Source: Pseudomonadota bacterium (GTDB lineage: Bacteria > Bdellovibrionota > UBA1018 > CAIMNF01). From it: a stretch of 64,000 nt of DNA. Below the pieces are notes generated by a model. It had not been told where the DNA came from, did not search any database, and worked only from the letters and a program-made list of their open reading frames with translations. The translations under genes were made by a program, and so were the position numbers. The DNA lies in the NCBI GenBank assembly GCA_027486675.1, contig JAIXOQ010000004.1, positions 124,001 through 188,000 on the forward strand. Direction: 5' to 3'. This document shows positions 1 to 24,065 of this stretch, piece by piece; position 1 is the first letter of the stretch; every line of letters begins with the position of its first letter.

Positions 1-2514
1 GTCGGTTTTTGTTCCTGGGTTGTAGGCACATTGCCTGCAAGCTTCACTGTCAGTAGTACGAATAACAGCAAAGTCTTAAGCGTTTGGATCAGAGACGCCG
101 CCGGCAATCGGTCCGCCCGCCAGGACTCTAATGCAGTGGTGTTAGATACCGTAGCACCCGTGCTTGCATCGGCAGTGATTACAAACAGTGATCCATCGAC
201 GACAAGAACTTACAATCTTGCTTACGGGGCTGTCACCGGAACCTATGCCGACTACTGCATCAATGAGAACGATACTGCTGTTGGAAATTGCGCGTGGGTC
301 GCGGGCACTCTCCCCGCTTCAACTTTAACGTCGGCTTCTGCAAACGCGAAGGTCTTAAGTCTCTGGCTCAGGGACGCCGCAACCAACGTCAGTGCCCGTG
401 TCGATACCAACAGCGTGACTTATTCACCGGTGATCCCAACGATTACGATCGGGGCGGCTAGCTCCAGTATCGGGAATAGCACGACGAACTTTGCTTTTAC
501 CGTAAGCTACTCTGATGCCACTGCGGTCACTCTTGCCAACGGTGATATCTCAACTTCTGTGGTAAGCGGCACACCCTCTTGTACTGTTGCGGTCACGGGC
601 TCTGGCGTTCTGACCCGCACTGTCACCTTAAGCGCTTGTTCGGGTGACGGGACGATCAGATTTGATATCGCTTCCGGCACCGCAAGCAATGCCGCTGGAT
701 CTGCAAACGGCGCAGGCCCAAGCGCTACAGTCACTGTGGATAACACTGCCCCAGGTATCCCTTCGGCTTTAGCGCGCGTGAGTCCGACTGCTGCTGTAGG
801 AAGTGATTCCACTCCGACCATCCGTGTCAACGGGGTTATTTCGGGCGACATCGTCTCTCTTCACCGTGACTCAAGCTGCACGACGCCAACACTCTACGCA
901 AGTGGGACCGCATCCGGGGTCACTATTGACCTGGAAGGGTCCGTCGGCCTTTCTGAAGGCGCATACACGTTATATGCAAAAAGTACGGATTTAGCTGGGA
1001 ATGCAAGCGCCTGTTCGTCTGCAAACGTCGCTTATCAGTACGACGCAACTGCGGCAACACTGGCTTCAGTCACAGTCACCAATTCCACTCCTACAAATTC
1101 TACGACCTATAATCTGACTTACGGCGCCATCACGGGCTCTTATGATGATTATTGTATTTTAGAGAATTCAACGACGGTGGGTTCGTGCTCATGGACAACA
1201 GGAACACTGCCTTCAAGCTTCACAGTCACTAGTACAAATAACAGTAAAGTCTTAAGCGTCTGGCTAAGAGACACCGCAGGAAACGTATCCACAAGGCAGG
1301 ATTCCAATGCCGTGGTCTTAGATACCGTGGCGCCATCTCTTGCATCTGCCGCGATCACAAATTCCACGCCCTCGACGACAAGAAACTACAACTTGGCCTA
1401 TGGCACCGTCACCGGAACCTATGCCGAATACTGCATCAATGAGAACGATACAGTCGTTGGAAATTGCGTTTGGGTCACGGGGTCGCTTCCGGCATCCACT
1501 TTGACGTCGGCTACTGCAAACGCGAAAGTTTTAAGCCTCTGGCTCAGGGATGCCGCCACCAACGTCAGCACGCGTGTCGATACCAACAGCGTGACGTATT
1601 CACCGGTCATTCCATCGATTTATGTCAGTGCGGCAAACCCATTGATCGGAAATAGCAGCACGAGCTTCAACATCACTGTGAACTATGTGGATGCTACCAG
1701 TGTGACTCTGGTCGCGGGTAATATTACGCAAGAAGTCTTAACTGGGAATCCTTCATGTTCAATAAGTGTCACTGGATCCGGTGTCTTAACCCGTACCATC
1801 ACACTCAGTGCATGTTCCGGAAATGGACTCATGAGGCTCCAGATCAATTCTGGAACTGCGAGCAATGCAGCTGGACTATCGCAATATAGCATTAGTCAAA
1901 GCTTTGAAATAGACAACACCCCGCCTTCAGCTCCGACTTCACTGATGAGCATAAGCCCAGCAGCCGCTATCGGGAATGACTCGACTCCAACTCTCAGGGT
2001 CAGCGGAGTCACAATTGGGGACGCCGTTTCTATCCACCGCGATTCCAGCTGTACCACACCAACCCTTTACGCATCGGGAACTGCATCGGGTGGGACCATA
2101 ACATTTGATGGATCAGTGCCACTTTCTGAAGGTTCATACACGTTCTACGCAAAAGCAACAGATCCCGCAGGCAATGCAAGCGCATGTTCTTCCGCAAGTG
2201 TCGCGTATCAATACGATGCGACAGCCCCAGCTTTAGCTTCAGCCACCATCACGAACTCCGCTCCTTCTACAACTCGAACCTACACTCTCAGTTACGGGGC
2301 GGTCACAGGAACTTATGCGGATTACTGCATTTTAGAAAACTCGACTACGGTGGGCTCTTGTTCTTGGACTTCAGGCACCCTGCCTGCAAGTTTCTTTGTC
2401 AGTGCTACGCAAAATGCGAAAGTCTTAAGCATCTGGCTCAGGGACAGCGCCTTAAACGTGAGCGCACGGGTAGACACCAATTCCATCAGCTACAATCCGT
2501 CCGGGAACTTTACG
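1..2514 (+). repeat. Coding super-repeat, period about 1,176 bp
   Basis: The segment beginning at 31 recurs at 1207 (exactly 1,176 bp, 392 codons) and again at about 2380 (1,173 bp). The module beginning near 166 likewise recurs near 1342. Copies are in frame, diverged in sequence and codon use, and retain paired cysteines. This is an old intragenic amplification of Ig-like modules and a possible site of recombinational length variation. Confidence 0.8.
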
Positions 2515-5073
2515 ATTGCGGATGTCAGTTTTAGCCTTAGAAAAGGAGCCGGTGGGCAGCAGCAGGCTGATAAAACTAATCTCTCTTACGCAACATTCAA
2601 AACAACACCGACGGTGGTGATGAATGCATCCACAAATGGAGCAGCAGGAACTTCAAGAGTTCAGATCTACAGTGACCCAGGCTGCACCTTGCCTTTAGGC
2701 AGTAGCGCCACAGGCATTAGCGCAGTTGGCGGCGTCAACATCGATGTCACCGAAGCCAGTTACGGCCGCAAGGAATTCTATGCGATCCTTATCAATGGCG
2801 GGAATGCCTCTGCTTGTACGAATACTCAGACAGCATATTTCCGTGCATTAGCGAACGATCTGACGATTACGGACAATACTACTCCATCGACCGCTATACC
2901 CAGCGGAGGAACCCGATACATCCAGTTTTCAGCGGCATTGCCTCAAAATAAAATGCTGGTCTGGGTGGACGATATAAACCAAGCCAATACCAACCGTGCA
3001 TTTTATGTTTTTAACCCAATCCTTGGGACCGCTACTGTAGCTGGGCAAGGAGGAGCAGCTCCAAATGGGGGTTGTGTGGAGGATTATTGTTTGATGCTCA
3101 GCTTGAGTTCCGGAAAGGTTCTGATTATTTCGGGTTATCAGGCGACAGTCTACGATCCGACAACCGATGCATTCTCTTCCGCCATTTCAACTGGAAGCGG
3201 GGCGAGATTAGGATACCTAGGGATAGGTTCCGGCCAAGAAACCCGAGCTGTAGAGCTTCAGGATGGGAACGTCTTTGTGTTGGGGGCTTCATCCGTAGAT
3301 AAGACAACGACACCTATCGCAAAGATCATCAATCCAACGACTTTTGATGTAACCCAGCTTCCCTCAGCACCTCTTCGAATATTCTCAAGCCTCACCTTAT
3401 TACCAGATGGCCGCGTCCTCATAGCAGGCGGACGACAGCCTTCTATCGTCGGAACAGATGTGAACTGGAGCCCAGAAAGCGCCAGTGATGCGCTCTATCT
3501 CTTTGATCCAAGCGACAACTCATTTTCAGCATCTGCAGCAACATTTCCAGAGGGCATCCACTCGCACGGTGCGGTTCTTCTTTCCGGATCCAATGCTGGG
3601 AAAGTCCTTTTCTTGGGAGGATCAACCCCAAATGCTGGAAGTGCTGCCGATTACAGCGGTAAAAATTATCTCTATGACTTTGCCCTAGACTCCATTGCTG
3701 TAACGGACGGCACAAATGCGATTGATCCCTTCACAGAGGATTCTTATTATCCAAGCTCGCCTACAGTCTACCAAATTTCCGAAGTCGAGACCATTCGATT
3801 GCCCAATTCAGGAAATCAGATTTTTGTGAGTATGGGTTTCGCAAGAAACGGATCAGGAATTGGAGAAGCAGATACAGGACTGTCTAACCGGACCTTTATC
3901 TTAAGTGCTGACGGAAAGAGCTACCGTGCTGGACCATCGATAGCAACTGCTAATAATAGGCCTCCCTGGATCTCAAGTGTCCTCACCAATGGTCAGATTG
4001 CTTCTATCAGAGAGGGTTCTCTCTTCCTCACCACAGTCCCTTACTCCGGTACATTCTCACTTGCAGCGACCAACTTAGATAAGCCTACTTATGCGCACAA
4101 AGCGCTCGTCACCTCTGACGACAAAGTCGTACTGCTGGGTGGATACACCACGGGTGCGGCTACCCAGGACCAAGCAGCGCTGTATGACTTACCGAATAGC
4201 TCCTACACGGTCTTAGGGAGTTATGGCGGCCAGGGCCCGACTTTTGGATTTGGTGCTGCATGGATCGACTCAAGCACCATTGTGGTCGCGGGAGGAGATT
4301 CGAAGGGAACCTCTTTAGACTTGAGCCGTGAACTTTCGGTTTCAGATTCATTTGGAAATGCAGCATTTCTAGTTGGAAAAGTACAGAATGTTTTCTCAAC
4401 GGTCGTGAATTCCCCAGCCCTCGGCGTGCTCATGATCGGTGGATTTGATGGTACGAATGTTCTTGATTCCATCTCGACCTACTCTTCAAACGTTTGGAGT
4501 GCCGCCTCGAACACTCTTCCTGAGGGATTCTACAAACATACTTCTGATGTGATCGCCGATGGAAGCGTTGTCGTCATAGGGGGATTAAAGTCGAGCGGTC
4601 AGACGAGCGATAGGATCACAGTCATCCGCCCTAATGGGTCTATTGGTGTAGACGGCACGTACCCTCAACAGCTCATGAATCACGCAACCGCGGTGATCGG
4701 ATCATTAGTTTATATCGTCGGAGGGGAGACAGGGCAGGACAAAGGCGACGGGTCATCTAAGATTTACAGCTACGATGCATCCAAGAAGGCACTTACTGAA
4801 GTCGCAGACTTAGGTGAAAGCCTTGTCGGCCACACCGTGACTGCATTGAACGACGGCAATCTTTTGGTTGCGGGTGGAAAAAGTGAGAAGAACGGCTTCA
4901 GCAACAAAGCCTATCTTGTGAATGTCGAGGCTGGGACCTTCCAAACCTTGACCATGAGCGGCAAGCGCGCATATCACACCGCCTCAAAACTCAGCGACGG
5001 CCGCGTCCTTCTGATCGGCGGGATCGATGAGAATTCAAATCCACTCGATACGGTAGACATCTACACGCCTTAA
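1..5073 (+). CDS. Giant surface protein, Ig-like repeats plus kelch repeats (5' partial)
   Basis: The frame is open from base 1, and its first residues (VGFCSWVVGTLP) match an internal repeat (VGSCSWTTGTLP). The gene therefore begins outside the window, and the TTG at 31 is not a real start. The first ~830 visible residues are modules in the order A-A-B-C, A-A-B-C, A. Module A carries a YCI.EN...C pair, B is a 'GTASNAAG' Ig-like unit, and C is a 'HRDSSCTTPTLY' unit. The remaining ~850 residues contain at least seven kelch-like motifs of the type 'dGrVLiaGG', suggesting one or two beta-propellers. It is probably a secreted or cell-surface adhesin-like protein. The signal peptide is not visible and the ligand is unknown. 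A single TAA ends the gene, followed by 92 bp without a recognisable terminator. Confidence 0.8.
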   Translation, partial: VGFCSWVVGTLPASFTVSSTNNSKVLSVWIRDAAGNRSARQDSNAVVLDTVAPVLASAVITNSDPSTTRTYNLAYGAVTGTYADYCINENDTAVGNCAWVAGTLPASTLTSASANAKVLSLWLRDAATNVSARVDTNSVTYSPVIPTITIGAASSSIGNSTTNFAFTVSYSDATAVTLANGDISTSVVSGTPSCTVAVTGSGVLTRTVTLSACSGDGTIRFDIASGTASNAAGSANGAGPSATVTVDNTAPGIPSALARVSPTAAVGSDSTPTIRVNGVISGDIVSLHRDSSCTTPTLYASGTASGVTIDLEGSVGLSEGAYTLYAKSTDLAGNASACSSANVAYQYDATAATLASVTVTNSTPTNSTTYNLTYGAITGSYDDYCILENSTTVGSCSWTTGTLPSSFTVTSTNNSKVLSVWLRDTAGNVSTRQDSNAVVLDTVAPSLASAAITNSTPSTTRNYNLAYGTVTGTYAEYCINENDTVVGNCVWVTGSLPASTLTSATANAKVLSLWLRDAATNVSTRVDTNSVTYSPVIPSIYVSAANPLIGNSSTSFNITVNYVDATSVTLVAGNITQEVLTGNPSCSISVTGSGVLTRTITLSACSGNGLMRLQINSGTASNAAGLSQYSISQSFEIDNTPPSAPTSLMSISPAAAIGNDSTPTLRVSGVTIGDAVSIHRDSSCTTPTLYASGTASGGTITFDGSVPLSEGSYTFYAKATDPAGNASACSSASVAYQYDATAPALASATITNSAPSTTRTYTLSYGAVTGTYADYCILENSTTVGSCSWTSGTLPASFFVSATQNAKVLSIWLRDSALNVSARVDTNSISYNPSGNFTIADVSFSLRKGAGGQQQADKTNLSYATFKTTPTVVMNASTNGAAGTSRVQIYSDPGCTLPLGSSATGISAVGGVNIDVTEASYGRKEFYAILINGGNASACTNTQTAYFRALANDLTITDNTTPSTAIPSGGTRYIQFSAALPQNKMLVWVDDINQANTNRAFYVFNPILGTATVAGQGGAAPNGGCVEDYCLMLSLSSGKVLIISGYQATVYDPTTDAFSSAISTGSGARLGYLGIGSGQETRAVELQDGNVFVLGASSVDKTTTPIAKIINPTTFDVTQLPSAPLRIFSSLTLLPDGRVLIAGGRQPSIVGTDVNWSPESASDALYLFDPSDNSFSASAATFPEGIHSHGAVLLSGSNAGKVLFLGGSTPNAGSAADYSGKNYLYDFALDSIAVTDGTNAIDPFTEDSYYPSSPTVYQISEVETIRLPNSGNQIFVSMGFARNGSGIGEADTGLSNRTFILSADGKSYRAGPSIATANNRPPWISSVLTNGQIASIREGSLFLTTVPYSGTFSLAATNLDKPTYAHKALVTSDDKVVLLGGYTTGAATQDQAALYDLPNSSYTVLGSYGGQGPTFGFGAAWIDSSTIVVAGGDSKGTSLDLSRELSVSDSFGNAAFLVGKVQNVFSTVVNSPALGVLMIGGFDGTNVLDSISTYSSNVWSAASNTLPEGFYKHTSDVIADGSVVVIGGLKSSGQTSDRITVIRPNGSIGVDGTYPQQLMNHATAVIGSLVYIVGGETGQDKGDGSSKIYSYDASKKALTEVADLGESLVGHTVTALNDGNLLVAGGKSEKNGFSNKAYLVNVEAGTFQTLTMSGKRAYHTASKLSDGRVLLIGGIDENSNPLDTVDIYTP

Positions 5074-9545: not shown

Positions 9546-10487
9546 CTAGCTCCTTTGATGACGAATTAAACTCTCGATAAAAAACTCTGCAGCGCGGTAA
9601 CTGGACCGAACCATAGGACCTGCTGCGACATACAAAAATCCTTGGGCTTCAGCGAGCTTCCTCAGCTCATCGAACTCAGGGACAGTGACATACTTTTCAA
9701 CAGGAAGGTGTTTTAAGGTTGGCCGCAAGTATTGACCTAAGGTCAAGATGTCCACGCCGACTTCCCTCAAGGAACGAAACGCATGCAAAAGCTCTGCGTC
9801 TGTCTCCCCAAGACCCAGCATGATCGAACTCTTCGTCACAACCTTTTGGCTCTTTTCTTGGGCGTAGATTTTCGCGTGCTTTAAGGTCTTTAAGCTTTGC
9901 GCAAACCCTGCTCGAGGATCTCGCACTCTGTACTGGAGACGCTCGACGGTTTCAATATTGTGCGCATAGACGTCCACCTGTGAATCGATCACAGTCTCAA
10001 CGCCGCGTAGATCACCTCTGTAGTCAGAAACCAAAGCTTCCACCAGAAGCTTCGAGTCGAGCTGTTTTAACTCTGAGATGGTCTTCGCAATGTGACCGGC
10101 TCCGCCGTCTTCCATGTCATCGCGATCCACAGTAGTCAGCACCACGTATTTCAGCTTCAACGCTGCAACCGCACGCGCCACATTCGCGGGTTCGTTCGGA
10201 TCTAGTGGCGGCGGGATTCTGGCCGTCTTCACTGCGCAAAAACGGCAAGCACGCGTACAGATGTCCGAACCGACCATGAAGGTTGCGGTGCCAGAGGCCC
10301 AGCATTCTGAAATATTTGGGCACCTCGCCTCTTCACAAACGGTGTTTAATCCACCCTCTTTTAAGAGTCCTTTGATTTTTGTGTAGGATTCGCCTCCAGG
10401 CGCGCGCACCTTGAGCCAGTCGGGCTTACGAAGGGGCGGAATTTTCTCCGCCTCAGTAGGAGGAATCGGGCGAGCCTGATCTTGCAT
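9546..10487 (-). CDS. lipA: Lipoyl synthase, radical SAM
   Basis: Inserts two sulfurs into octanoyl-lysine of E2 and GcvH. The auxiliary cluster cysteines are C51, C56 and C62 (CEEARCPNISEC). The radical-SAM cluster is C77, C81 and C84 (CTRACRFC). The family's C-terminal RSSY motif is present (MVRSSYRAAEFF). The 313-residue length is typical. It is first of the lipoate genes and begins 14 bp after the small secreted-protein gene, so it may be read from the Tad/hit-like transcript as well as from its own promoter. Confidence 0.97.
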   Translation of the reverse strand: MQDQARPIPPTEAEKIPPLRKPDWLKVRAPGGESYTKIKGLLKEGGLNTVCEEARCPNISECWASGTATFMVGSDICTRACRFCAVKTARIPPPLDPNEPANVARAVAALKLKYVVLTTVDRDDMEDGGAGHIAKTISELKQLDSKLLVEALVSDYRGDLRGVETVIDSQVDVYAHNIETVERLQYRVRDPRAGFAQSLKTLKHAKIYAQEKSQKVVTKSSIMLGLGETDAELLHAFRSLREVGVDILTLGQYLRPTLKHLPVEKYVTVPEFDELRKLAEAQGFLYVAAGPMVRSSYRAAEFFIESLIRHQRS

Positions 10488-10501: not shown

Positions 10502-10726
10502 TTAACGGACTTGTTCCGGATGGTCCACAGATACGGCAGTGGGAGCGTCCCCCTCGGGGCTATGCACCTCTTGATCGAACGGGTTATATCCGAATTTTAG
10601 AGGTTGATCGCTGATTGCGTGGCTTTTACAGCTCTGGGGCAGCTCAGACGGTGCGCCGTCCGGGGAAAGACCAGCCTGTGGCCCAGCCAGACAGATCAGC
10701 GATAAAACGGCAATCATCGCGAGCAT
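10502..10726 (-). CDS. Small secreted protein, positional counterpart of Bdellovibrio Bd0108
   Basis: Seventy-four codons with a hydrophobic N-terminus (MLAMIAVLSLICLAG) and a plausible cleavage after PQA at about residue 18. The mature part is short, polar and proline-rich. The ATG lies 2 bp beyond the stop of the YD-repeat gene, with AGGG as ribosome-binding site. No family is recognised from the sequence. In B. bacteriovorus the hit gene bd0108, a small secreted protein, pairs with YD-repeat bd0109 beside type IVb pilus genes; here position, size class and export signal agree. Homology is inferred from synteny only. Confidence 0.6.
   Translation of the reverse strand: MLAMIAVLSLICLAGPQAGLSPDGAPSELPQSCKSHAISDQPLKFGYNPFDQEVHSPEGDAPTAVSVDHPEQVR
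10571..10610. repeat. In-frame 7-bp direct repeat inside the small secreted-protein gene
   Basis: TTGATCG occurs at 10571-10577 and 10604-10610, 33 bp apart start to start, a multiple of three. Slippage or recombination between the copies would delete 11 codons without shifting the frame; each copy encodes an Asp-Gln pair. Chance occurrence is quite possible at this length. Confidence 0.5.
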
Positions 10727-10728
10727 TT

Positions 10729-12405
10729 TTATATCCCTAGGTTTGCGCCCGATGGCCGCACCAAATCGTAGACGGTTTGAATCACGCCAATGATCTCATC
10801 GGTGACGGCATCCCCGCCGTCGCTCGTCATCTTGTCCACTTCACCACTCGATTTATAAGTGAATGCAAGCTTCCCCTTACCGCGACTTGAGATCAGCGCT
10901 GGGCGGTTGTTTTCATTGTATTTGAGCTGAAGCACCATGCCTTTTTCGTTCGCAATCTGCATGGGTCGCTGCTTGCTATCCCAAACGAGCTTCACCCACT
11001 GCCCGGAGGAGTTCTTAGCTGATAAAACCACGTGTGCTTTTGGATCCCAAGTGAACTCAGACCAAGTCAGCTTTTTTTCCGGAAGCTCTGTTTTTTCAAC
11101 ACGAGCGAGCTTCCCGGTTTTTGAATCGTACTTCATCGCCACAATCTCATCTGGAGTGGTCTTTAAAATGGTCCTTCCCCGATCATCATATTTATATTCA
11201 GTCTTGGCCCCAGCCTCATCCACCTTCTTCGGTAAGCCCGTTTTTTCATCATAGTCGGTGATGGTCACCTGCCCATTGACATTGCTCTTGAGCTGAATGG
11301 TGTAGGGCTCGCCTGAACTGCGATGTTTATTTTTATAGTCATACTTTGAATTAGAAACCACACGGCCGCGTGAATCCTTTTTAGTGACCGATACAGAATA
11401 TCGATCAGGATCGGTCGAGACGCCATAAGCGTATTCGTATCGGCTCCCATCTAAATTTTCGACTGACTTTACGTTCAATAATTTGTCCGGGCCGTAATAC
11501 TCCACGCGCATCGCTTGTTTAGTTCCTGGAAAGCCAATTTCAGTCAAATTGTAGTAAGGAGCGGGGCCGTACTTAAAGGTGTTCTCAATCCCCTTCATGT
11601 CTCGACTGGTGGCTAACATGCCCGCGTCATTGTAACCAAATGAGGCCTTAAGCCCACTTTCACCGATGACTTGAACCAGGCGGTCCCCGACTGCTCCAAA
11701 GGTTTTGTAAGAAAACTTCATTTTGCGTTTTTGGTTGTCAATGAGTTCAGCAATCTTTCCGTTTTTTCCGTAAGTAAAACGAATGAAGTGTCCGAGCCGG
11801 TCCTGCAATTGGGTCAGATGTCCACGGTCATCAAAGGTATAGACTTCCCCGTATTCATTCACACGAATGAAGCCCGTCTTCGTTTTTGTGAGGTACTGAT
11901 GGCGATAAAGAGATGATGCCAACTGAGCGCCCACTTTCAGTGTCACTGCTTTTGCAAAGCCGCGACGCACGAGGGTTGCCCACAGATTGGATCGATACTT
12001 CGGATCTGCGGTGATTCTTGATTTAAACTCCTCAAGCGCCTTACCCGTAGGAGCAAGCCCTTTAGAGACCGCAAGCGTCACCATCTCATTTATTTTTTTT
12101 GTGGCTAGCGCTTGAGTGTAGTTCTTAGGTAGAAACCGATTCTCGGCCCCTCCACCGTGCTCGACAATCAGAACGCTGCCATCCGGATCTACGGAAAGCT
12201 GGGTCTCGTACTCGCTCCCCCAGCCATAACCAAACATTGGGCTCACGTAATCGAGCTTAGAGTTGTAAGTAGAAAGCACCTTGGGTTCTAAGTCACCCGG
12301 ATACTCGATGTGGGTGAAACCTACAAAAAAATTACCATTCTTCAGGCTGACGTCGGCCTGAGAGTTGAAGCTTAGAAAAGACGTCAAAAGTGCAAAAGCG
12401 ATCAC
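10729..12405 (-). CDS. Secreted YD/RHS-repeat protein, Bd0109-like
   Basis: A 558-residue exported protein. It has a GTG start behind a GGGGG ribosome-binding site, signal peptide MIAFALLTSFLSFNSQA and mature start DVSLKNG. Residues about 20-80 resemble the N-terminal module of RHS proteins (TYNS...FGYGWGSEYE). From about 190 onward there are repeated YD-type units such as FDDRGHLTQLQDRLGH, YDDRGRTILKTT and YDSKTGKLARV. No polymorphic toxin tip is present; the chain ends soon after the repeats. It is the last large gene of the Tad cluster. Its place beside pilus genes and before a tiny secreted protein matches Bdellovibrio bd0109, reported there as a periplasmic/secreted YD-repeat protein. 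Confidence 0.8.
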   Translation of the reverse strand: MIAFALLTSFLSFNSQADVSLKNGNFFVGFTHIEYPGDLEPKVLSTYNSKLDYVSPMFGYGWGSEYETQLSVDPDGSVLIVEHGGGAENRFLPKNYTQALATKKINEMVTLAVSKGLAPTGKALEEFKSRITADPKYRSNLWATLVRRGFAKAVTLKVGAQLASSLYRHQYLTKTKTGFIRVNEYGEVYTFDDRGHLTQLQDRLGHFIRFTYGKNGKIAELIDNQKRKMKFSYKTFGAVGDRLVQVIGESGLKASFGYNDAGMLATSRDMKGIENTFKYGPAPYYNLTEIGFPGTKQAMRVEYYGPDKLLNVKSVENLDGSRYEYAYGVSTDPDRYSVSVTKKDSRGRVVSNSKYDYKNKHRSSGEPYTIQLKSNVNGQVTITDYDEKTGLPKKVDEAGAKTEYKYDDRGRTILKTTPDEIVAMKYDSKTGKLARVEKTELPEKKLTWSEFTWDPKAHVVLSAKNSSGQWVKLVWDSKQRPMQIANEKGMVLQLKYNENNRPALISSRGKGKLAFTYKSSGEVDKMTSDGGDAVTDEIIGVIQTVYDLVRPSGANLGI

Positions 12406-12433: not shown

Positions 12434-13297
12434 TTATACATCGACGCGCACTATGAAACGGATCAAAAAAAACGCAACCATTTCTAAGGCCACAACAATC
12501 GCTACTACGATCCAACCCATGGCACTGCTGAACAATGCTGCAAACATAGTCGGATCATTCTCTTTTAACATCAAAACCATCATGGGTGGAAACAACAACA
12601 ACAGGTAACCCTGCATCTTTCCCTGGGTTGTCATCGCATCGATCTTCTGTTCCATCTTGATGCGTTCACGAATGGTGCTTGAGATCGTGTCAAAGGTCTC
12701 AGCCAGGTTACCGCCGGTCACCTTCAGGATATTGACGCTGGTGACAAACATTTCTACATCGTCTGACTTCATTCGGCGTGCGAGTTCAGAAAAAGAATCC
12801 TCAACCGACATGCCCAAGCGATTCTGACTCAGCATCAATTCGAACTCATCCTTCAGTGGGGACTGGCTTTCCTGCGCGACAAGCCCCATAGCCTGCACAA
12901 CACTCAGGCCAGAACGCATTCCATTGGACATGAGTGAAAGTCCGTCTACCATCTGAACAACAAATTTTTTGAGACGCTTTTGATACATCGTGTCCACGAC
13001 AAATTTTGGAGAAAACCAAACCACGAGGGATGCAAACAAGCCAAAACCTGCAGCGACCTTAAGATCTGGAAGAAGCATCACAAAGACGAAGAGCCCTAGG
13101 CCAAGACTCGCACCCGCCATCAGCGCGAAGACCTTCTCAGAGGTCATATCAATCATCATGAGCTTCAGGCGGTCGTAGACGTAATCCCGTGTGCCAATGG
13201 ACTGAAATCTCACCCAGTCTAGTATGCGATCGGAAAACTGGTAAAAAACTAATGAAAGGGCTATAAAAACCACGCTGATGAATAAGAGGGATGTCAT
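12434..13297 (-). CDS. tadB: Tad pilus inner-membrane platform protein TadB
   Basis: A 287-residue T2SF-domain protein. Membrane segments lie near the N-terminus (LLFISVVFIALSLVFYQF), at about 60-100, and at the C-terminus. The cytoplasmic GspF-like core includes 'MSNGMRSGLSVVQAM' and 'VTGGNLAETFDTISSTIRER'. TadB and TadC form the platform on which the TadA ATPase acts. The start codon directly abuts the stop of the TadZ-TadA fusion, the usual tadA-tadB order. Confidence 0.9.
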   Translation of the reverse strand: MTSLLFISVVFIALSLVFYQFSDRILDWVRFQSIGTRDYVYDRLKLMMIDMTSEKVFALMAGASLGLGLFVFVMLLPDLKVAAGFGLFASLVVWFSPKFVVDTMYQKRLKKFVVQMVDGLSLMSNGMRSGLSVVQAMGLVAQESQSPLKDEFELMLSQNRLGMSVEDSFSELARRMKSDDVEMFVTSVNILKVTGGNLAETFDTISSTIRERIKMEQKIDAMTTQGKMQGYLLLLFPPMMVLMLKENDPTMFAALFSSAMGWIVVAIVVALEMVAFFLIRFIVRVDV

Positions 13298-15451
13298 CTA
13301 TTTCACCGCAAATATTCCGCGAGGTATGCGCAGGTTCTTGCGCTCCAGTTCCTCGACAAATTTTGGAATAAATCCGGTCGGCACATAACGGCCAATGATT
13401 TTCCGGTTTTTATCCATTCCTTCTTCTTTAAACTCAAAAATATTCTGTAGAGTGATCGTGTCGCCTTGGATGCCAGCCACTTCTGATATATGAGTGACTT
13501 TCCGTGTCCCGTCCGCCATACGACTTTGCTGAATCACAAGATTCACTGCAGAAGCAATCGTTTCCCGAATCGCACGCGACGGTAGCCCTAAACCCGCCAT
13601 CATCACCAGGGTCTCAAGCCGAGCTAGTGCTTCACGAGGCTCATTCGCATGCAAGGTCGTGAGCGAGCCAGAATGGCCCGTATTCATCGCTTGCAACATA
13701 TCGAGAGCTTCGCCGCCACGGCATTCCCCGACGACAATTCGGTCAGGCCGCATTCTCAGACAACTCTTGATCAATTCACGGATCGACACTTCCCCAGTGC
13801 CTTCAATGTTCTTAGGTCGGGTCTCAAGACGCACCACATGGTCTTGACCCAGCTGAAGTTCGGCTGCGTCTTCGACCGTGATGATGCGTTCATTGGACGG
13901 GATGAAGTTCGAGAGAACGTTTAAGAGTGTGGTTTTACCGGAACCAGTTCCCCCAGACACAACGATATTGAGTTTTCCTTCCACACAGAACCTTAGAAAA
14001 TCAGCCATTTCTTGGGTCATGGATCCATAACCAACAAGGTCTTTGATGGTGATCCGGTGTTTCGGAAACTTTCTGATCGTGATTGTAGGGCCTCTCAGTG
14101 CGAGCGGCGGAATAATAATATGCACCCGAGATCCATCTGCAAGACGGGCATCCACATAAGGAGTACTGTTATCGACTTTCCTGCCTAAAGGTTCGACGAT
14201 GCGTTCGATGATTTTCATCATCTGCTCTTCACTGGTGAATGTTGTGCGAGCAACCTGAGGCTTACCGCCTCGTTCGATGTAAATTTGGTCTCTGGCATTC
14301 ACCATGATCTCAGTGACGCTTTCGTCTGCAAGTAGATCCTCCAGCGGCCCAAGCCCTAAGGCTTCATCCAGCACTTCCTTGAGTAACTGTGTCTTCTGCT
14401 CACGACTCGGACAGGTAGAACTGAGATCCTCCTGATTCATGAGATCTAAAATTGCTTTTTGCGTCTTCTCACGTAAAACACCGGCGACGCCATCACTTCC
14501 ATCCCGCTTAAAGTCCATGATATCGATCAGGCCTTTATGGATTCTGATCTTCAGTGCGGTCCACGGGTCGATCGAGCCGGACTTCGAGCGTCCAAAATTT
14601 CCATTTGCATCTTTAGATGGTCCAGAGACTAGAGCAAGATTTTGATTCTTGCTCTCTTGCGCCTTCTGCGCAACGCCGGAGGGTTTATTGAGTCTTGCTA
14701 AGTTTTCAAGCAGCTTCGTCTGCTCCATTCGCCGCACGAGTTCGTGATAGGAGCGAGTCAAGGCACTGGCAGGGGCGGAGAGGACGAAAGGCGCACTTTT
14801 GGCGAGCGCCATATCACTGGTTGCGGCATCCTCAGGAAGAACAGCAAACGGTGCGCGACCTAAGTTCTTCTGAATCATGGCTGGATTGATCACGCTCGTT
14901 GCAGCCTGGCGGTTGATCACCAGTTGCACCATTTCAGGGGGGAACATGAGCTCCTGAACACGCTGTAGCACTCTTTTGGTCTGATTGAGCACGATCATGT
15001 CTGGAGTGCTTACGACAAAAATCAGGGAAGCCACCTCCATCGCACGCAATGCCTGCGGTTCGGTTCCACTCCCGCCATCGACAATCACCCATGGAAAAAG
15101 AGTAGTTGCCGCTTTCAAAAATTTACCTAATCCGTCCAAATCAATATCACGCGCTGAGAATGCATCTCTCGGTGCGGCTATAAAACTATAGCCTTGAGGT
15201 GAACTTGCCATAAAAGGTGCAAGAGCTTTTGGGTCCCAGGAACCGACATTTGCTTTGCTGACGTCGACGATACTTTTTGCAGGATTGAGTCCTAGGACGA
15301 TATTCATATCCCCTAGGGCTTGAAAATCAAGATCAACGATCAATGGGCGTTGCTTCACATTGAGCTGATAGGACAATGCTAGATTTGCAGCGAAGACACT
15401 CTTCCCTACGCCTCCTTTGCCCCCAACTACAACGATGATATGACCTGCCAC
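13298..15451 (-). CDS. TadZ-TadA fusion: ParA-like localiser joined to pilus assembly ATPase
   Basis: Residues 1-~250 form a ParA/MinD-like domain with the deviant Walker A GGKGGVGKS (K12 signature, K17 P-loop), the TadZ/CpaE fold without its receiver domain. A linker of about 50 residues follows. Residues ~300-717 are a complete CpaF/TadA secretion ATPase with GGTGSGKTT (K506), a Walker B-like RPDRIVVGECRGGEALDMLQA segment and SLTTLHANEP. These two proteins are normally separate adjacent genes. Here one 717-codon frame runs through without an internal stop. The fusion should tie polar placement of the apparatus to the motor at 1:1 stoichiometry. Confidence 0.92.
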   Translation of the reverse strand: MAGHIIVVVGGKGGVGKSVFAANLALSYQLNVKQRPLIVDLDFQALGDMNIVLGLNPAKSIVDVSKANVGSWDPKALAPFMASSPQGYSFIAAPRDAFSARDIDLDGLGKFLKAATTLFPWVIVDGGSGTEPQALRAMEVASLIFVVSTPDMIVLNQTKRVLQRVQELMFPPEMVQLVINRQAATSVINPAMIQKNLGRAPFAVLPEDAATSDMALAKSAPFVLSAPASALTRSYHELVRRMEQTKLLENLARLNKPSGVAQKAQESKNQNLALVSGPSKDANGNFGRSKSGSIDPWTALKIRIHKGLIDIMDFKRDGSDGVAGVLREKTQKAILDLMNQEDLSSTCPSREQKTQLLKEVLDEALGLGPLEDLLADESVTEIMVNARDQIYIERGGKPQVARTTFTSEEQMMKIIERIVEPLGRKVDNSTPYVDARLADGSRVHIIIPPLALRGPTITIRKFPKHRITIKDLVGYGSMTQEMADFLRFCVEGKLNIVVSGGTGSGKTTLLNVLSNFIPSNERIITVEDAAELQLGQDHVVRLETRPKNIEGTGEVSIRELIKSCLRMRPDRIVVGECRGGEALDMLQAMNTGHSGSLTTLHANEPREALARLETLVMMAGLGLPSRAIRETIASAVNLVIQQSRMADGTRKVTHISEVAGIQGDTITLQNIFEFKEEGMDKNRKIIGRYVPTGFIPKFVEELERKNLRIPRGIFAVK

Positions 15452-15466
15452 GATTGACTTCCCTTC

Positions 15467-17083
15467 CTAGTTCGACTTCACACGAAAGTTCGCTTTGAGG
15501 TCTGTAGTTCCTTCAGATGCATTTTCAATCAGCTGCGGCGAAACATAGACGATGAATTGACCGCGTCGTTTATTGAAGTTCTTAGAGCGATTTAAGGTGA
15601 AGAGCGGACGAGTTGCAGCCCCCGTCGCAGAAGCTCCAAAGGCACCTGGGTTGGCGTCATCCCGGTTGTAACCAGTCTGAACATCATTGGTATCAATTCC
15701 GGCTAGAGCCGCAACTTCACCCGACTTCAGATAGACCCTGGATTGTACTTCGTGTTGCGCCACAATCGGAGTGCCGTTAGGACCGTTCCCAATGCGGTTG
15801 GTCTGATTGAGTTTAAGGCTAAGATCAATATTGTCCTGCGCAAGAATCGTGGGCGTGATCTCGACATCAAATCCCACATTGATTGGATTGCCGGTCCCCG
15901 CGGTCCCATTCACTCCTATTGTTTGTGGGTAGACCGTTTGCAGGTCCTTGAGGAGACCCTTTTCCCCTGATTTCGCGATGATATTTGCAGTCTTTAGGAT
16001 ACGACCATAACCCGCATCTTGTGCGCTTTGGAGGACTGGGAAGAGCGACGAAAGAGTGGCTGCAAAAGAGAAGCCCCCAGCGCCTGCGCCCGCAGTCGTC
16101 ACCGACCCCGTAGAACTTTGACCGATAGAAATTTTTGCGTCCTCTGTAAAGCCTGGCTGCCACTTAAAGCCAAAGACCTTTCTGAAGTCCTTGGATAGCT
16201 CGACAAAGTGCACCGTAAGCCGAACAAGTTTGCTTTCCCTTTTTGGTGGTGGCTCTTGTACTACGATTTGATCCTGCAAAAGATCTAGAGGCTTCGTATC
16301 ACGAACGGCCAGTTCATCTTTTGAGATCGGATCAGAAGGTCTAATTTCAGGAATATAGATTCGAGCGCGATCAAAGACTTGTTTCTTAAGGGCAGCGCTT
16401 TCTACCGTGCCCTCAAGCAAGATCTTTTTATTTACTACTCCAACCCTCACCGTGACTGCGATCGTCTGCACTTCTTTTTCAATTCGTTTGGAAAGCTCAG
16501 AAAGAGAGACAGGCGACAGCGTTACCTTATTTGAGACATTTGCGGCAAATCTTGGATCATTGGTGATGTCATAAACACGTCCATAATCAGGAATAGTGAT
16601 CACCTCGCCCAGCAAATACACCTTCCCGCCCACGATGCGGTACTCAATGCCTTCGACCTCTTTCAAAAGCACATCCCGTAACTCAGACAAGATCCGGTCT
16701 AAGTTCACGCTGGTTGCAATGATATCTAGAATCAGCTTTGGATTACCGGCTTCATCCCGGATGGTGATATTGGTTTCTCCAACCTGGAGTGCCTTGAGTA
16801 CCAACTGCTTCTGGTCCCCCACCTTCACTGCGGTCGCACGTACTATCTCTGTATTCCCGATCTGAATCCCATCTCGGGTCATGTTGGCATCAAAGTCAAT
16901 ATCGATCAGTTTATCGACACCTAGGCCCACAACAATTTCACGGTGGTCAGCCTTCGCTTCTGTGCGATCGCTCGTCAGTTCAGATTTACGATAGGGATCT
17001 GAACTTTTACGACGACGAGTCTCAGCATTGGCATCGGTTGCAAATGCGAGTACCGCCAAAAGAATAGAGATGGTCATTTTCAT
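15467..17083 (-). CDS. cpaC: Tad pilus outer-membrane secretin (CpaC/RcpA)
   Basis: A 538-residue secretin. The signal peptide is MKMTISILLAVLAFATDANA. The N-terminal pilus N0-like domain (~45-125) and BON/N1-like segments (~140-240) precede the C-terminal secretin pore domain (~300-520), which has the 'GFDVEITPTI...LSLKLNQT...SRVYLKSGEVAALAGI' pattern. It forms the outer-membrane channel for the Flp pilus. The start overlaps the cpaB stop by 4 bp. Confidence 0.9.
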   Translation of the reverse strand: MKMTISILLAVLAFATDANAETRRRKSSDPYRKSELTSDRTEAKADHREIVVGLGVDKLIDIDFDANMTRDGIQIGNTEIVRATAVKVGDQKQLVLKALQVGETNITIRDEAGNPKLILDIIATSVNLDRILSELRDVLLKEVEGIEYRIVGGKVYLLGEVITIPDYGRVYDITNDPRFAANVSNKVTLSPVSLSELSKRIEKEVQTIAVTVRVGVVNKKILLEGTVESAALKKQVFDRARIYIPEIRPSDPISKDELAVRDTKPLDLLQDQIVVQEPPPKRESKLVRLTVHFVELSKDFRKVFGFKWQPGFTEDAKISIGQSSTGSVTTAGAGAGGFSFAATLSSLFPVLQSAQDAGYGRILKTANIIAKSGEKGLLKDLQTVYPQTIGVNGTAGTGNPINVGFDVEITPTILAQDNIDLSLKLNQTNRIGNGPNGTPIVAQHEVQSRVYLKSGEVAALAGIDTNDVQTGYNRDDANPGAFGASATGAATRPLFTLNRSKNFNKRRGQFIVYVSPQLIENASEGTTDLKANFRVKSN

Positions 17084-17937
17084 CTGAGTCCTCCTTGAGG
17101 AGCGGGCGGAGTTGCAGAAGCAGGACGACGTATATCCCCTAAGATGTCGCTTTGTGTGACGAGACCCACTGAGGTCCTATCGGTATCGTCTGCATTTCGG
17201 AGGGTCAAAAATAGCGTTGAATTCCCCATGCTGAGGAGCGCAAGAGATTGAGCAGCGGCAGGTTCTACCTCAAGAGTGACAGAGCTATACCCGTCGTAAT
17301 CTGCGAGTGGTCGCACGGTTTGTTTACCCGAGCTTGGATCCACATCTACTTTGCGAGGCAGATTATTCGTCACCGAACGACCCACTGCAAGGATTGCAAC
17401 ATCTTGGAGAATCGTACGAGCGACTCGTTGCACACCCCCACTACTGGTCACGTCAATCACCGCTATGACATCGACACGATCACTCGGCTTCACTAACTTT
17501 CCAACACTGGTTCGTTCATCCACTGTAATCGAGATCGCCCTTTTTCCTGGGGTCACTTGCGGAGCAAGGCCGGTGCGAAGCGATGGCTCTCTCACTTTAT
17601 TATATGCGAGCTGTTCGCCCTTCTTAATCGGTACCAACGCTACAGCACCTCGAAGTTCCTTGATGCGTTGCTTAAAGAGATCACTGGATGTGGATGAGTC
17701 CCGATCACTGTAAGAAATCGCATCGGGTTCCACGTAGTTTTTTGGAATTTCTTTGGGTTCGATGATGGCGGGATCTAAGGCTTGCATCTCTTTAATATCG
17801 CCTTTAGCAACTAGAACGATCACAGGAGTGCCATTACGATGCACAGTCTCTTCCCGGATACTTTCCACCGAGGAATAGACCAGATAGGTCGCAATTCCTG
17901 CCATAAATAGGCTTAAACCCATCGCTTTATTGTTCAC
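17080..17937 (-). CDS. cpaB: Flp pilus assembly protein CpaB/RcpC
   Basis: Chosen start is GTG 17937, whose GTGA overlaps the stop of the upstream pseudopilin gene and has GGAGGG as ribosome-binding site; this gives 285 residues. Longer frames to 17988 lie inside the neighbour. It has a single N-terminal membrane anchor (MGLSLFMAGIATYLVYSSV), then an SAF domain (VIVLVAKGDIKEMQALDPA) and a CpaB-type C-terminal region (KRAISITVDERTSVGKLVKPSDRVDVIAVIDV). It probably acts in the periplasm with the secretin. Confidence 0.9.
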   Translation of the reverse strand: MNNKAMGLSLFMAGIATYLVYSSVESIREETVHRNGTPVIVLVAKGDIKEMQALDPAIIEPKEIPKNYVEPDAISYSDRDSSTSSDLFKQRIKELRGAVALVPIKKGEQLAYNKVREPSLRTGLAPQVTPGKRAISITVDERTSVGKLVKPSDRVDVIAVIDVTSSGGVQRVARTILQDVAILAVGRSVTNNLPRKVDVDPSSGKQTVRPLADYDGYSSVTLEVEPAAAQSLALLSMGNSTLFLTLRNADDTDRTSVGLVTQSDILGDIRRPASATPPAPQGGLR

Positions 17938-18494
17938 AACGAAGTCCCTCCGTAGGTGCATGGAGTGCCACCTGAATACTGCGGCCAACGCACGTTTCTT
18001 GGAAATGCCTGTGGATCAATCGCGACCCATTTACCATTTGATTTCGTAGCACTTGCCTGTGTGCACAGCGCAACAGTGTTTCGCACTCGAACTTTGGTTC
18101 TACGATCGACCTCACCCGGAGCATCCGAACCTGGACTCTGAGTTCCCGATCGACCGATATTTTCCTCTGTAGGGATGGGTTCAAGGGCATCCCCTTCTTC
18201 TGCAGCAATCGCTGCCGAAGGATCGTTCACACCTAAGATCACCATGGAGTGGCCATACTTATCCATACTGGCGGATGATTGAGGTGGTCTGCGCCATTCC
18301 ATCCGTGGGTACTCAGGCTGGTTTGAGGCAAGCTGAAAGAGCTGGACGCGGGCGTACTGCACATTGTTGATAGCAACCTGAGCCGCTAAATTCACATGAT
18401 ACAGAATTCCGACCATGGCAAAAAAGAGTGGGATCACAAGGATCACCTCCACTAAGCCTTGTCCGGATTCGGAACGGAGGATATTAGCAGCCAT
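17934..18494 (-). CDS. TadE-like pseudopilin
   Basis: 186 residues. The leader ends in SESGQ, followed by the conserved E five residues after G (SGQGLVEV) and a hydrophobic stretch ILVIPLFFAMVGILYHVNLA, the TadE-like motif. The soluble part is Ser/Pro/Glu-rich with a CTQA...GGTPCTYGG cysteine pair. It overlaps the preceding pseudopilin gene by 11 bp and the following cpaB start. Expected to be processed by a prepilin peptidase, which is not encoded in this window. Confidence 0.82.
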   Translation of the reverse strand: MAANILRSESGQGLVEVILVIPLFFAMVGILYHVNLAAQVAINNVQYARVQLFQLASNQPEYPRMEWRRPPQSSASMDKYGHSMVILGVNDPSAAIAAEEGDALEPIPTEENIGRSGTQSPGSDAPGEVDRRTKVRVRNTVALCTQASATKSNGKWVAIDPQAFPRNVRWPQYSGGTPCTYGGTSL

Positions 18495-19060: not shown

Positions 19061-19381
19061 TTACTCTTTCGACGGATTGATGAATACCCTTGAACCGCCT
19101 CCTAGTACCAAATTGACGGGACCACCGTCTTCCGGACCACGCGCATCCTTATGGCCGTACCGGTATGCAAAAGCGAAGTCTTTCGTCAAAGGACTGACGA
19201 GTCTTTTAAAAAAACCACGATCCTGAATGCCCCGCATAGCGAAGAGAAAAGTTCCAAATACGACCGCTAAAAGGAGTACATATTCAACAGCCGATTGCCC
19301 CGATTCGTTCTGGCTATTTCGTCCAGTAAGTCGCCGGCAATGCACCTGTTCTAAGTTCTCGCTCGAACCTTCCTCCAACAC
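19061..19381 (-). CDS. Flp/TadE-like pilin-family protein, short
   Basis: The core motif NESGQSAVEYVLLLAVVFGTFLFAM is of Flp pilin type. A ~60-residue tail (DGGPVNLVLGGGSRVF) is longer than in the classical Flp1 pilin. The start is uncertain: GTG 19381 overlaps the upstream gene by 68 bp, while GTG 19345 gives a 16-residue leader ending in G and a 32-bp overlap. Neither is backed by a well-spaced ribosome-binding site. Confidence 0.75.
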   Translation of the reverse strand: MLEEGSSENLEQVHCRRLTGRNSQNESGQSAVEYVLLLAVVFGTFLFAMRGIQDRGFFKRLVSPLTKDFAFAYRYGHKDARGPEDGGPVNLVLGGGSRVFINPSKE

Positions 19382-19514
19382 CTTCTACCCCCTTATCCAA
19401 AGAAGCGACCACGGTGACCCTCACCACGATCACGACACTTAAGACGACGGCCAAGACCAGGACGTATTCAATAACAGCCTGCCCGGATTGCCGTTTTCTG
19501 CGCAGGGACTTCAC
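19314..19514 (-). CDS. Flp-type pilin
   Basis: 66 residues: basic leader KSLRRKRQSG, then QAVIEYVLVLAVVLSVVIVVRV and a short C-terminal tail. Size and motif fit a type IVb Flp pilin, the major-subunit class, and it is the best candidate here for the fibre subunit. The start is a GTG whose last bases overlap the stop of the upstream gene (GTGA). Confidence 0.8.
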   Translation of the reverse strand: MKSLRRKRQSGQAVIEYVLVLAVVLSVVIVVRVTVVASLDKGVEGVGGRFERELRTGALPATYWTK

Positions 19515-20162: not shown

Positions 20163-20840
20163 TTATACCGCCAAAATCCTAACTACCGTGGCATTGCGAT
20201 CCCCACCCTTCGGGTTGCCGCCTTGTCGCACTGCTTCAAACTGCTCCGAACTGACTCCGCTGGAACACAAATACACGGCATCACCTGCAATCAGCTTGAG
20301 CTCAACCAATTCGGGCTCAAGCGTGTTGTGTGTCCCAATACTCACCAATGGAATTTCATAGGCAGATCCGATCAATGCACCGCTTGGATCTAAAGCCTGA
20401 GCAAGACTCCTCGGTTGAACAATGGGAGCCAAACATTTTTGCCGTTCGTGGTAGGCCCGACAGGCCCCGATGTTTGCAATGGAAAGGTTGGGCCCATCCA
20501 TAACCGCGGCAATCAGGGAAGCACCCCCCCGTTTTGAAATAGGCGTCTCAGCGAAGCTTTCCATGACACTGCGATTTGCATGCGAGACAGCGTTAAAAAG
20601 CACATTACCCATCAGAGTCAGATAACGACGGATTTCAAAAGGAAGAGTCGCATCTAAATCTCCTGCCTCAAGTTCCAGGAAATCAGCAAGAGATTCGCAA
20701 GCGAGCGTTGAAGCAAAAACACCAGGATGACCACCAAAACCGTCCCCCAAAACAGCAAATCTTCTTGCCTCACGAACGACAATCACGTCTTCCTGAAAGG
20801 GTGTATTTCCTTCTGAGGTCCAGACATCAAACTGAATCAT
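20163..20840 (-). CDS. PP2C-like Ser/Thr protein phosphatase
   Basis: 225 residues matching the PP2C pattern: an acidic N-terminal 'NTPFQEDVIVV', metal-site VLGDGFGGHPG, RGGASLIAAVMDGPNLSIANIGACRAYHER, AGDAVYLCSSGV, and a terminal DRNATVVRI metal-binding motif. It is predicted to dephosphorylate Ser/Thr residues. It follows three FHA-domain genes with a 4-bp overlap, a common pairing in which FHA domains read the phosphothreonines that such phosphatases erase. The partner kinase is not in the window. Confidence 0.82.
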   Translation of the reverse strand: MIQFDVWTSEGNTPFQEDVIVVREARRFAVLGDGFGGHPGVFASTLACESLADFLELEAGDLDATLPFEIRRYLTLMGNVLFNAVSHANRSVMESFAETPISKRGGASLIAAVMDGPNLSIANIGACRAYHERQKCLAPIVQPRSLAQALDPSGALIGSAYEIPLVSIGTHNTLEPELVELKLIAGDAVYLCSSGVSSEQFEAVRQGGNPKGGDRNATVVRILAV

Positions 20841-23038
20841 GGGTTTCCTGTCTCCGTCGGTGTAGGTGATGCAGCGGCGTCTAGGATCGTCAATCTCCGT
20901 AACTTTGCCTGAGCTTTTTCATGGTAACTGTCGTCCCTGGTGCTGCTATCGAGTATCTGTTTAAACTTGGCTTTTGCAGTCTCCACATCGCCTAAGCTCT
21001 CTGCAAAAACAGCCTCGATGTAGATGTGTTTGGATTTAGCCTCAAGCATTCCTTTAATTCGTTTCATCCCATCTTTTGAGATTTTATCTTCTGGATCTAC
21101 TTTGGATGCAGAAGAGAAAGAGTTATAGGCTGCTGCAAGATCGCCGCGATCTTCTGCTTCTTTTCCAGCTCGCAGAAGCGGGTCGCGTTCATTTGCGATC
21201 AGTTGGGTAGAGGCTTCGATCTCACGATCGATCTTCGCATCCCAGTCAGAAGGGCCTGGGTCCTTCCCCTTCATCTCTGAAAGCTCGTCAATCGCAGCGT
21301 AGTAGTCCTTGGTTTCGGAGCGACGGGCAAGAATCGCGGTCAACTCTGTTTTCAGCTGCCTACGAATGATCGCAAGCTTTTCTGCTTCCTCTTTTGCGCG
21401 AAGCTTGCGCTCTCGCTCCGCGATGACCTCATTGCGCCATGCATTCACGAGCGCATTCTCGGGCTCTATGATTTCGATCTCAGCAAAAATTCCCTCAGCC
21501 TCAGTGTACTTCTTTTGCGCCATCAATGCGCCAGCCTGCTGTGTGAGCGTATCTAACTTGATCCTTTGAGCTTTCTCTAAGTCTTTACGCTTTCGATTCT
21601 TTTCTTCCTGTTCAATCTTTGCCTGAGCTTCCTGTGCGTAGGATCGAATTTCTCTCGCTTGTTTAAAGTCTGTGGTCACTTGAAAGATTTTATCGACCTC
21701 AAAAATTGCTTTTGCGTAGTCACGATTTTTATAATAATCAACGGAGAGTTGATACTGCGCCTCCACATAACGTTTCTGTTCAGGTGATAGGGCTTCAAAA
21801 TGAGGGAGTCCCACCTTTTCAGAAGAATCCTTCACCGGCTTCTTAGCGGACACCTGTTGAGCACTGGGTTGCACTTGCTTCTGGGCTGGATCTTCATCAA
21901 AAAACACCATGTAGAATACGCCCAATATGGCCGCACCATAGATGATTTGCATCTTGGGAGGCAAGGTCCGGTAGTACTCTAAAAAGCGTCCAATCGCGGA
22001 TTTTTTTTCGACGCTTGGGATTCCAAGACCCGGATTTGAGGAGACAAATGCATTTGACGGTTGAGCCTCAGCTCCTGCCATAGGATACGGCTGCGCCTCT
22101 GATACCTGGACTGCCTCGGCAGGTATCTCAACGGGTAAAAAGTTTCTTTCTTTCTCTTCGTAGTCTTTGCTGTGAACACGAAACTGAAAGGTAGTATTGC
22201 CGATCTGGATTTGATCACCTGAAGAGAGTACTGCTTCAGAAACTCTGGATCCATTGATGGAAGTTCCGTTTGCGGAACCTAAATCCTGCAATACAAATCC
22301 TTGGCCACGACGTTTGATGATCGCGTGTTTGCGCGAGGACTTAGCGTCCTCTAAAACGACATGACAATTGGGAGCGCGCCCAAGGGAGATCTCGTTATCT
22401 AAAATCTCATAACGTTCGCTGTTTGCGGATCCAGGGGAGAAGATGAGTTCTGCAACGGCCATCGGTGCCTCAAAGGCACGGGTCTGATCAGAATTTTCTG
22501 TTTCTAAAAAAATCTCTTGTGGTGCTTCACTAATCACAACCTGTGAAGCGTTTGGAATCGAGAAAACCGGCTCCTCAAGTGCAGCAATAGGGATAGAGGC
22601 GGTCTGCTGCTCGGTTGATGGGTCATAGCTTGGCATTGCCACTTCGTCCTGGGGTAAAGGTTCTTCCGGTGCCGCCTCCTCGGTCACTGGCGTAACTTGA
22701 GGAGTGCTCATGACATCGATTACCGGCTGCGGCGATTCTATCTGCTTTTGTTGCAAAACAAGAACAAAGGGTCCTATTTCAACTCGGTCTCCAAGAACTA
22801 TTCTTGCGCGCTGGGTTTCGGCACCATTCACCATCATGCGTCCGAAACGGGAACTCAGCAGGACCTCGATTGCATCCCCAACACGGCGGACTTCTGCGTG
22901 ATTTCTTGAAATTGCATGGTCATCTAAACGGATCGTGCAAGCAGCATCCCGACCCACTAGGATGGGGTCCATCTTGAGAGGTACTTCCATGAGGCGACGG
23001 CCCTCACTAAAGACTTCTATGAACGAGTCAGCCATCAA
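20837..23038 (-). CDS. Tandem-FHA, single-pass membrane, TPR-like protein
   Basis: 733 residues. FHA domain 1 (~20-95; ILVGRDAACTIRL...SRNHAEV) and FHA domain 2 (~205-290; ISLGRAPNCHVVL...SSRKHAII...GSANGTSINGS) are cytoplasmic phosphothreonine readers. One transmembrane helix follows at about 365-385 (IIYGAAILGVFYMVFF), then a long helical, lysine/glutamate-rich region with TPR-like repeats (YAKAIFEVDKIFQV; AAAYNSFSSASKVDPED). It probably links cytoplasmic phospho-signalling to periplasmic parts of the pilus. It overlaps both neighbours by 4 bp. Confidence 0.85.
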   Translation of the reverse strand: MMADSFIEVFSEGRRLMEVPLKMDPILVGRDAACTIRLDDHAISRNHAEVRRVGDAIEVLLSSRFGRMMVNGAETQRARIVLGDRVEIGPFVLVLQQKQIESPQPVIDVMSTPQVTPVTEEAAPEEPLPQDEVAMPSYDPSTEQQTASIPIAALEEPVFSIPNASQVVISEAPQEIFLETENSDQTRAFEAPMAVAELIFSPGSANSERYEILDNEISLGRAPNCHVVLEDAKSSRKHAIIKRRGQGFVLQDLGSANGTSINGSRVSEAVLSSGDQIQIGNTTFQFRVHSKDYEEKERNFLPVEIPAEAVQVSEAQPYPMAGAEAQPSNAFVSSNPGLGIPSVEKKSAIGRFLEYYRTLPPKMQIIYGAAILGVFYMVFFDEDPAQKQVQPSAQQVSAKKPVKDSSEKVGLPHFEALSPEQKRYVEAQYQLSVDYYKNRDYAKAIFEVDKIFQVTTDFKQAREIRSYAQEAQAKIEQEEKNRKRKDLEKAQRIKLDTLTQQAGALMAQKKYTEAEGIFAEIEIIEPENALVNAWRNEVIAERERKLRAKEEAEKLAIIRRQLKTELTAILARRSETKDYYAAIDELSEMKGKDPGPSDWDAKIDREIEASTQLIANERDPLLRAGKEAEDRGDLAAAYNSFSSASKVDPEDKISKDGMKRIKGMLEAKSKHIYIEAVFAESLGDVETAKAKFKQILDSSTRDDSYHEKAQAKLRRLTILDAAASPTPTETGNP

Positions 23039-24057: not shown

Positions 24058-24065
24058 TTAAATCC

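Follow-up and report, generated by a model that had tools for sequence, protein, structure and literature searches.

The window, a stretch of 64,000 nucleotides that forms part of contig C12 of a 2.7-Mb genome in 33 contigs, carries on its minus strand a Tad operon, including the pair at its end, and the lipA-like gene beyond it. The terminal pair of this operon consists of an open reading frame (ORF) for an exported YD/Rhs-repeat protein of 558 amino acids (P0001; 10729..12405, GTG start) and, separated from its stop codon by a gap of 2 bp, an ORF with an ATG start for a small secreted-like protein of 74 amino acids (P0002; 10502..10726). The initial annotation had described an exported YD protein followed after 2 bp by a 74-codon ORF at the end of a type IVb pilus cluster, and the ORFs, the gap and the Tad neighbours were all confirmed. 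The gene order up to the pair is TadE-TadE-CpaB-CpaC-ParA/CpaF fusion-TadC-YD-small. Immediately upstream of the YD gene, at a distance of 28 bp, lies the gene of a TadC-like inner-membrane protein (12434..13297; T2SSF, Pfam PF00482), and this order is identical in strain HD100. It is preceded by a 717-aa fusion of ParA/CpaE with CpaF (TadA ATPase; 13298..15451; Pfam CbiA and T2SSE), whose HD100 counterpart comprises 739 aa, by the CpaC/RcpA secretin (15467..17083; Pfam Secretin and T2SS-T3SS_pil_N) and by CpaB/RcpC (17080..17988; Pfam RcpC). Of the two TadE-like proteins, the minor pilin encoded at 18484..19056 matches Pfam TadE, while the second copy (17934..18494) was assigned by sequence inspection from its N-terminal ESGQGLVEVILV motif and has no Pfam match. 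Two Flp-like pilin candidates, again with no Pfam match, were recognised by inspection from a ESGQSAVEYVLL motif (19061..19381) and a SGQAVIEYVLV motif (19314..19514).

The downstream boundary of the locus is formed by a lipA-like gene (9546..10487), and the small ORF occupies the gap between it and the YD gene. Inspection of the translations indicates that this gene is followed by E2-/E3-like dehydrogenase genes and a lipB-like gene; within the same family, 10 loci likewise have a lipA-like neighbour next. Scans for promoters and terminators gave results no better than chance. Elsewhere in the window, three proteins with FHA domains resembling the Yop-YscD cytoplasmic domain are encoded in a row next to the Tad genes (20837-25658), a set of DabB/NuoL-like, DabA-like and SulP-type genes recognised by inspection (28620-34912) resembles an inorganic carbon uptake system, and a large protein with bacterial Ig-like and Kelch repeats (31-5073) probably starts outside the window.

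As a reference for the hit locus of HD100 we used genome G190, the only one among 369 genomes matched by the exact primer sequence given in PMC3818213. Its locus encompasses the 101-aa bd0108, the 550-aa bd0109, TadC, the 739-aa ParA-CpaF fusion, CpaC, CpaB and two TadE-like genes, arranged as they are in the window. The alignment of P0001 with Bd0109 spans both proteins in full and shows 27% identity (E 1e-59). Searching the window genome with Bd0109 yields a single match, located at P0001, and searching G190 with P0001 likewise yields a single match, located at bd0109. In genomes harbouring extra YD copies (G193, G198, G222 and G231) the best match of P0001 is the full-length copy which is also preferred by Bd0109. 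The reciprocal best match to Bd0109, on which the initial annotation had made its reading depend, is present, and the gene order is the same. Judged by the full-length match, the reciprocal best match and the shared gene order, P0001 belongs to the Bd0109 family and is orthologous to Bd0109.

Both P0001 and Bd0109 contain the Pfam domains RHS_repeat and DUF6531. A default search of the window genome with PF05593 returned no match in spite of the hmmscan score obtained for P0001, and this null result was not used. The putative signal peptide of P0001 (about 17 aa; 12355..12405) is a hydrophobic N-terminus free of Lys and Arg, and it precedes a conserved A(D/N)VSLxNGN motif which relatives also possess. 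Neither a C-terminal protease motif nor a variable toxin domain was found, the C-terminus being short and conserved. The AlphaFold (AF2) model of P0001, for which, as for P0002, a single chain was modelled, displays an Rhs-like beta fold (pLDDT 93.2, pTM 0.86). Foldseek matches this model to the Rhs cores of T6SS effectors, to teneurins and to the shells of Tc BC components, the highest query TM-score being 0.51, and P0001 has about half the length of these proteins.

The small protein is less easily classified. Its codon bias of 0.006 is midway between that of coding (0.163) and non-coding sequence (-0.118). A TAGGG element is found about 9 bp ahead of its ATG. The putative signal peptide (about 18 aa; 10673..10726) was identified by eye as a hydrophobic stretch with an uncertain cleavage site and with no Lys or Arg in its n-region. 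The mature part contains one Cys and no CxxC motif, which is present in 83% of 12 sampled members of the same family. According to the AF2 model only an N-terminal helix is formed and the rest is predicted to be disordered (mean pLDDT 59), in line with its composition. No match was found in Pfam and no credible one in 57 relatives, and BLAST produced no alignment with Bd0108. Compared with shuffled controls, P0002 ranks 25th of 1000 against the profile of family f11 and is unremarkable against the five other profiles; no similarity to Bd0108 or to any family profile survives correction for multiple testing. Since sequence similarity to Bd0108 or to the 57 relatives is not detectable, the identity of P0002 rests on position and architecture: as for Bd0108, we find a small ORF directly after the YD gene, a signal peptide called by a crude rule and predicted disorder. 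P0002 corresponds to Bd0108 in position and architecture, homology between the two being unproven.

We extended the comparison of gene order, as had been proposed, to the whole phylum. The YD profile finds matches in 342 of 369 Bdellovibrionota genomes and in 227 of the 235 genomes of the high-quality set. TadC lies directly upstream of the YD gene in 174 of 178 sampled loci, and CpaF is found upstream in 109 of 111. Of the otherwise good genomes with a Tad cluster but no YD gene, nine were examined; in eight of them the contig stops before or within the position of the YD gene, and only G244 represents a real loss, TadC being followed there (locus L247, G244:C51) by an unrelated lipoprotein-like ORF of 647 aa. 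Outside the phylum, Geomonas paludis (L061) encodes a YD homolog with a similar C-terminal end (RPAGVNLNF), which has neither TadC in its vicinity nor a small partner.

Bd0108 is encoded by the gene most often reported mutated in prey-independent Bdellovibrio. This gene has been worded as specific to Bdellovibrio (PMC3818213), and the initial annotation had mentioned its description as unique to Bdellovibrio. A small ORF with a signal-peptide-like N-terminus is, however, present downstream of the YD gene in 162 of 174 loci (93%), compared with 70 of 584 other long ORFs (12%), a control set which includes some antisense ORFs, and 47 of 522 stretches of shuffled DNA. Signal peptides were called here by a crude rule, and the count of 162 is approximate because the ORFs at L051, L064 and L210 look false while those at L145, L203 and L228 look missed. 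The contrast is more pronounced for ORFs with a start within +-30 bp (93 of 174 versus 11 of 584 controls, 1.9%), and it persists if only ATG starts are counted (157 of 174 versus 34 of 584). The hit-type pair closes the Tad operon in nearly the whole phylum and is not special to Bdellovibrio; as a statement on the arrangement, "unique to Bdellovibrio" is therefore wrong.

These companions have features in common beyond their position. Cys occurs in the mature part of 152 of 159, compared with 61% of the control ORFs, and CxxC in 44, compared with 10.8 expected and a maximum of 21 in 500 shuffles. Disorder-promoting residues amount to 80% in the companions versus 64% in control ORFs. For close pairs of loci other than that of the window the dN/dS of the small gene ranges from 0.04 to 0.40, dS being saturated in several of the pairs, and its dN usually exceeds that of the YD gene severalfold, ranging from about equal in L078/L109 to about 16 times as high in L179/L180. 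The companions are real, mostly fast-evolving genes under purifying selection. All checkable members of the window's own family harbour a small ORF at the same place. The initial annotation had expected the small frame to be conserved in near relatives, which is borne out for a small secreted ORF at this place and not for the exact 74-aa sequence. In the f21/f22 loci (L157-L162, L166) the slot is instead occupied, by our reading by eye, by a conserved Lys-rich helical protein of about 100 aa with no signal peptide; hence the partner is replaceable.

Within a family the small proteins show continuous similarity. Between families, comparison of profiles with one another (HMMs, hhalign, shuffled controls) gave no firm matches and most pairs were non-significant, some controls in the hhalign comparison having scored implausibly, near 125, for which reason that comparison was given no weight. 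Weak signals in both directions connect f11 and f18, and likewise f9 and the window's own order. Bd0108 itself scores weakly against the profiles of f9 (5 of 1000 shuffles) and f18 (20 of 1000), which is not firm after multiple tests. Since their position is kept, the small genes likely share common descent, although this is unproven by sequence. The suggestion that the locus is a diverged form of the Bdellovibrio pair, to be examined by profile alignment, has thus held up for YD orthology, gene order and the position of the small ORF, and not for homology between P0002 and Bd0108. That P0002 is a fast-evolving homologue missed by searches fits the data, while BLAST and profiles do not demonstrate the homology.

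In HD100 the pair is tied by phenotype to type IVa pili (PilA), bd0108 mutants being affected in pilus length (PMC3818213). PilT (TIGR01420) is encoded in the window genome and in 344 of the 369 genomes of the phylum. The genomes of f23 (G346-G351), f24 (G352-G353) and f25 yield no TIGR01420 match over the cut-off, and nearly all of them contain CpaB. G346, which is 100% complete, retains CpaB, CpaC, CpaF, TadC, the YD gene and the small secreted gene, as does G353, and G351 likewise keeps the pair together with Tad genes. Most of the tested PilT-less genomes, among them G346, G347, G350, G351 and G353, score over the cut-off for PilM, so that type IVa assembly may remain in them. The persistence of the pair where PilT is not detectable favours a Tad role over one in type IVa retraction; it argues against a requirement for PilT, not against every type IVa role.

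We consider it probable that the locus is the form which the Bdellovibrio hit module takes in the window organism, and that a periplasmic Rhs shell and its disordered partner tune the Tad pilus. Both proteins would be exported to the periplasm, where P0001, as its model suggests, may fold into a small Rhs-type beta-shell devoid of the protease and the toxin tail of classic Rhs proteins. By analogy with Bd0108 and Bd0109, the short disordered partner might bind weakly to this shell, and the complex could tune how the Tad (type IVb) pilus is assembled or displayed on the surface, by which the state of the pilus or of cell contact could feed back on the cell. We infer this mechanism (Rhs shell, disordered ligand, Tad tuning) from the work on Bdellovibrio and from genomic context. 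Evidence against it comes from the lack of firm sequence similarity between P0002 and Bd0108 or any family profile, from the missing CxxC and the ambiguous codon bias of P0002, from the HD100 phenotype, which was described for type IVa and not for Tad pili, from PilM in several PilT-less genomes and from the substitute protein in f21/f22. The phylum-wide occurrence of the arrangement makes an ancestral role at the envelope and the Tad pilus probable, with the growth-mode switch of Bdellovibrio as a lineage-specific use of it. A wider reading, to which we give slightly less than even credence, regards the pair as an ancestral, PilT-independent Tad accessory of the entire phylum, composed of a conserved shell and a fast-evolving ligand whose divergence would mirror shifts in contact partners or prey, the switch to host independence in Bdellovibrio being derived.

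Other explanations have to be weighed against this. The YD protein might be a true ortholog of Bd0109 whose small neighbour has been replaced time and again by unrelated or de novo exported, disordered, Cys-bearing peptides, which would render P0002 an analogue rather than a homologue. While the scarcity of significant cross-family profile matches, the clearly different protein of f21/f22 and the failure of P0002 to match anything are consistent with such refilling, we hold it to be rather unlikely in view of a position kept in 93% of the loci, the continuous similarity within families and the weak f11/f18 and f9/own-order signals; a single ancestral, fast-evolving gene is also the simpler assumption. 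It is still far less probable that the 74-codon frame is spurious and the YD protein alone is real. The midway codon statistics, the missing homolog in 57 relatives and an n-region with neither Lys nor Arg would agree with this, yet the frame belongs by position to a class of companions under purifying selection found there in nearly all relatives, fills the YD-lipA gap and is preceded by TAGGG about 9 bp before its ATG.

With respect to function, the pair could govern extrusion and retraction of type IVa pili, as has been proposed for HD100, its co-transcription with Tad genes being incidental. This possibility draws support from the effects seen on PilA and pilus length in bd0108 mutants (PMC3818213) and from the occurrence of PilT in the window genome and most of the phylum. 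We nevertheless regard it as unlikely, since the YD gene is tied to the Tad operon phylum-wide and, together with the small gene, persists in genomes where no PilT match exceeds the cut-off. A toxin-immunity or effector module, in which the small protein is carried by the Rhs shell or caps it and is delivered by this shell to other cells through the Tad system, is quite improbable. The best structural matches of P0001 are indeed T6SS Rhs effectors, teneurins and Tc BC shells, encapsulation of Bd0108 has been proposed (PMC4267844), and Tad-like systems are used by Myxococcus to kill prey (PMC8460266, PMC12075869). However, P0001 ends in a short, conserved C-terminus in which there is no variable toxin domain, and the small proteins, bearing signal peptides and being disordered and of low hydrophobicity, do not resemble folded cytosolic immunity proteins. 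The Rhs shell with its disordered partner, acting on the Tad pilus, is our preferred reading. Lineages with the pair but no PilT permit a comparison of the type IVa and the Tad model and, if a Bd0108-like partner accompanies Bd0109 phylum-wide, the role of the pair becomes a comparative question with the Tad operon as its fixed context.

Binding of Bd0108 to Bd0109 and effects on pili have been reported (PMC3818213, PMC4267844), and Bd0109 homologs had already been associated with Tad systems (PMC3818213). The locus of the window resembles the HD100 hit locus in its Bd0109 ortholog, its operon order, a small secreted, predictedly disordered partner downstream, and a similar gap and size class. 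It differs in that the large protein is only 27% identical and the small one, with 74 instead of 101 aa, bears no detectable similarity and possesses one mature Cys in place of the CxxC of its HD100 counterpart. For B. exovorus a Bd0108 homolog at 28% has been described, and for B. marinus two unrelated small neighbours (PMC4267844). P0001 shares the predicted Rhs beta-repeat fold with T6SS Rhs effectors, teneurins and Tc BC components, but is only about half as long, lacks any C-terminal protease or variable toxin domain that we could find, and has a link to Tad rather than to T6SS. The Kil Tad pilus of Myxococcus is also a Tad machine of a predator, whose tips are minor pilins; the accessible part of that report describes no hit-type pair (PMC12075869). 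PMC5430801 describes the bd0109-bd0113 block as an attack-phase core conserved in Bdellovibrionaceae and Bacteriovoracaceae; it covers the TAD operon bd0109-bd0119, with no treatment of a small companion outside Bdellovibrio in its accessible part. Closest to our observations are the short signal-peptide genes near Bd0103/Bd0109 homologs in Bdellovibrionales bins from wastewater (PMC10469934), which likewise place small secreted genes beside Bd0109 homologs outside B. bacteriovorus. Whereas that study comprises about 20 bins of one order with E-values up to 10, the present survey covers 174 loci across the phylum, and its quantification with positional controls, its selection test and its PilT contrast are new as far as the literature was searched.
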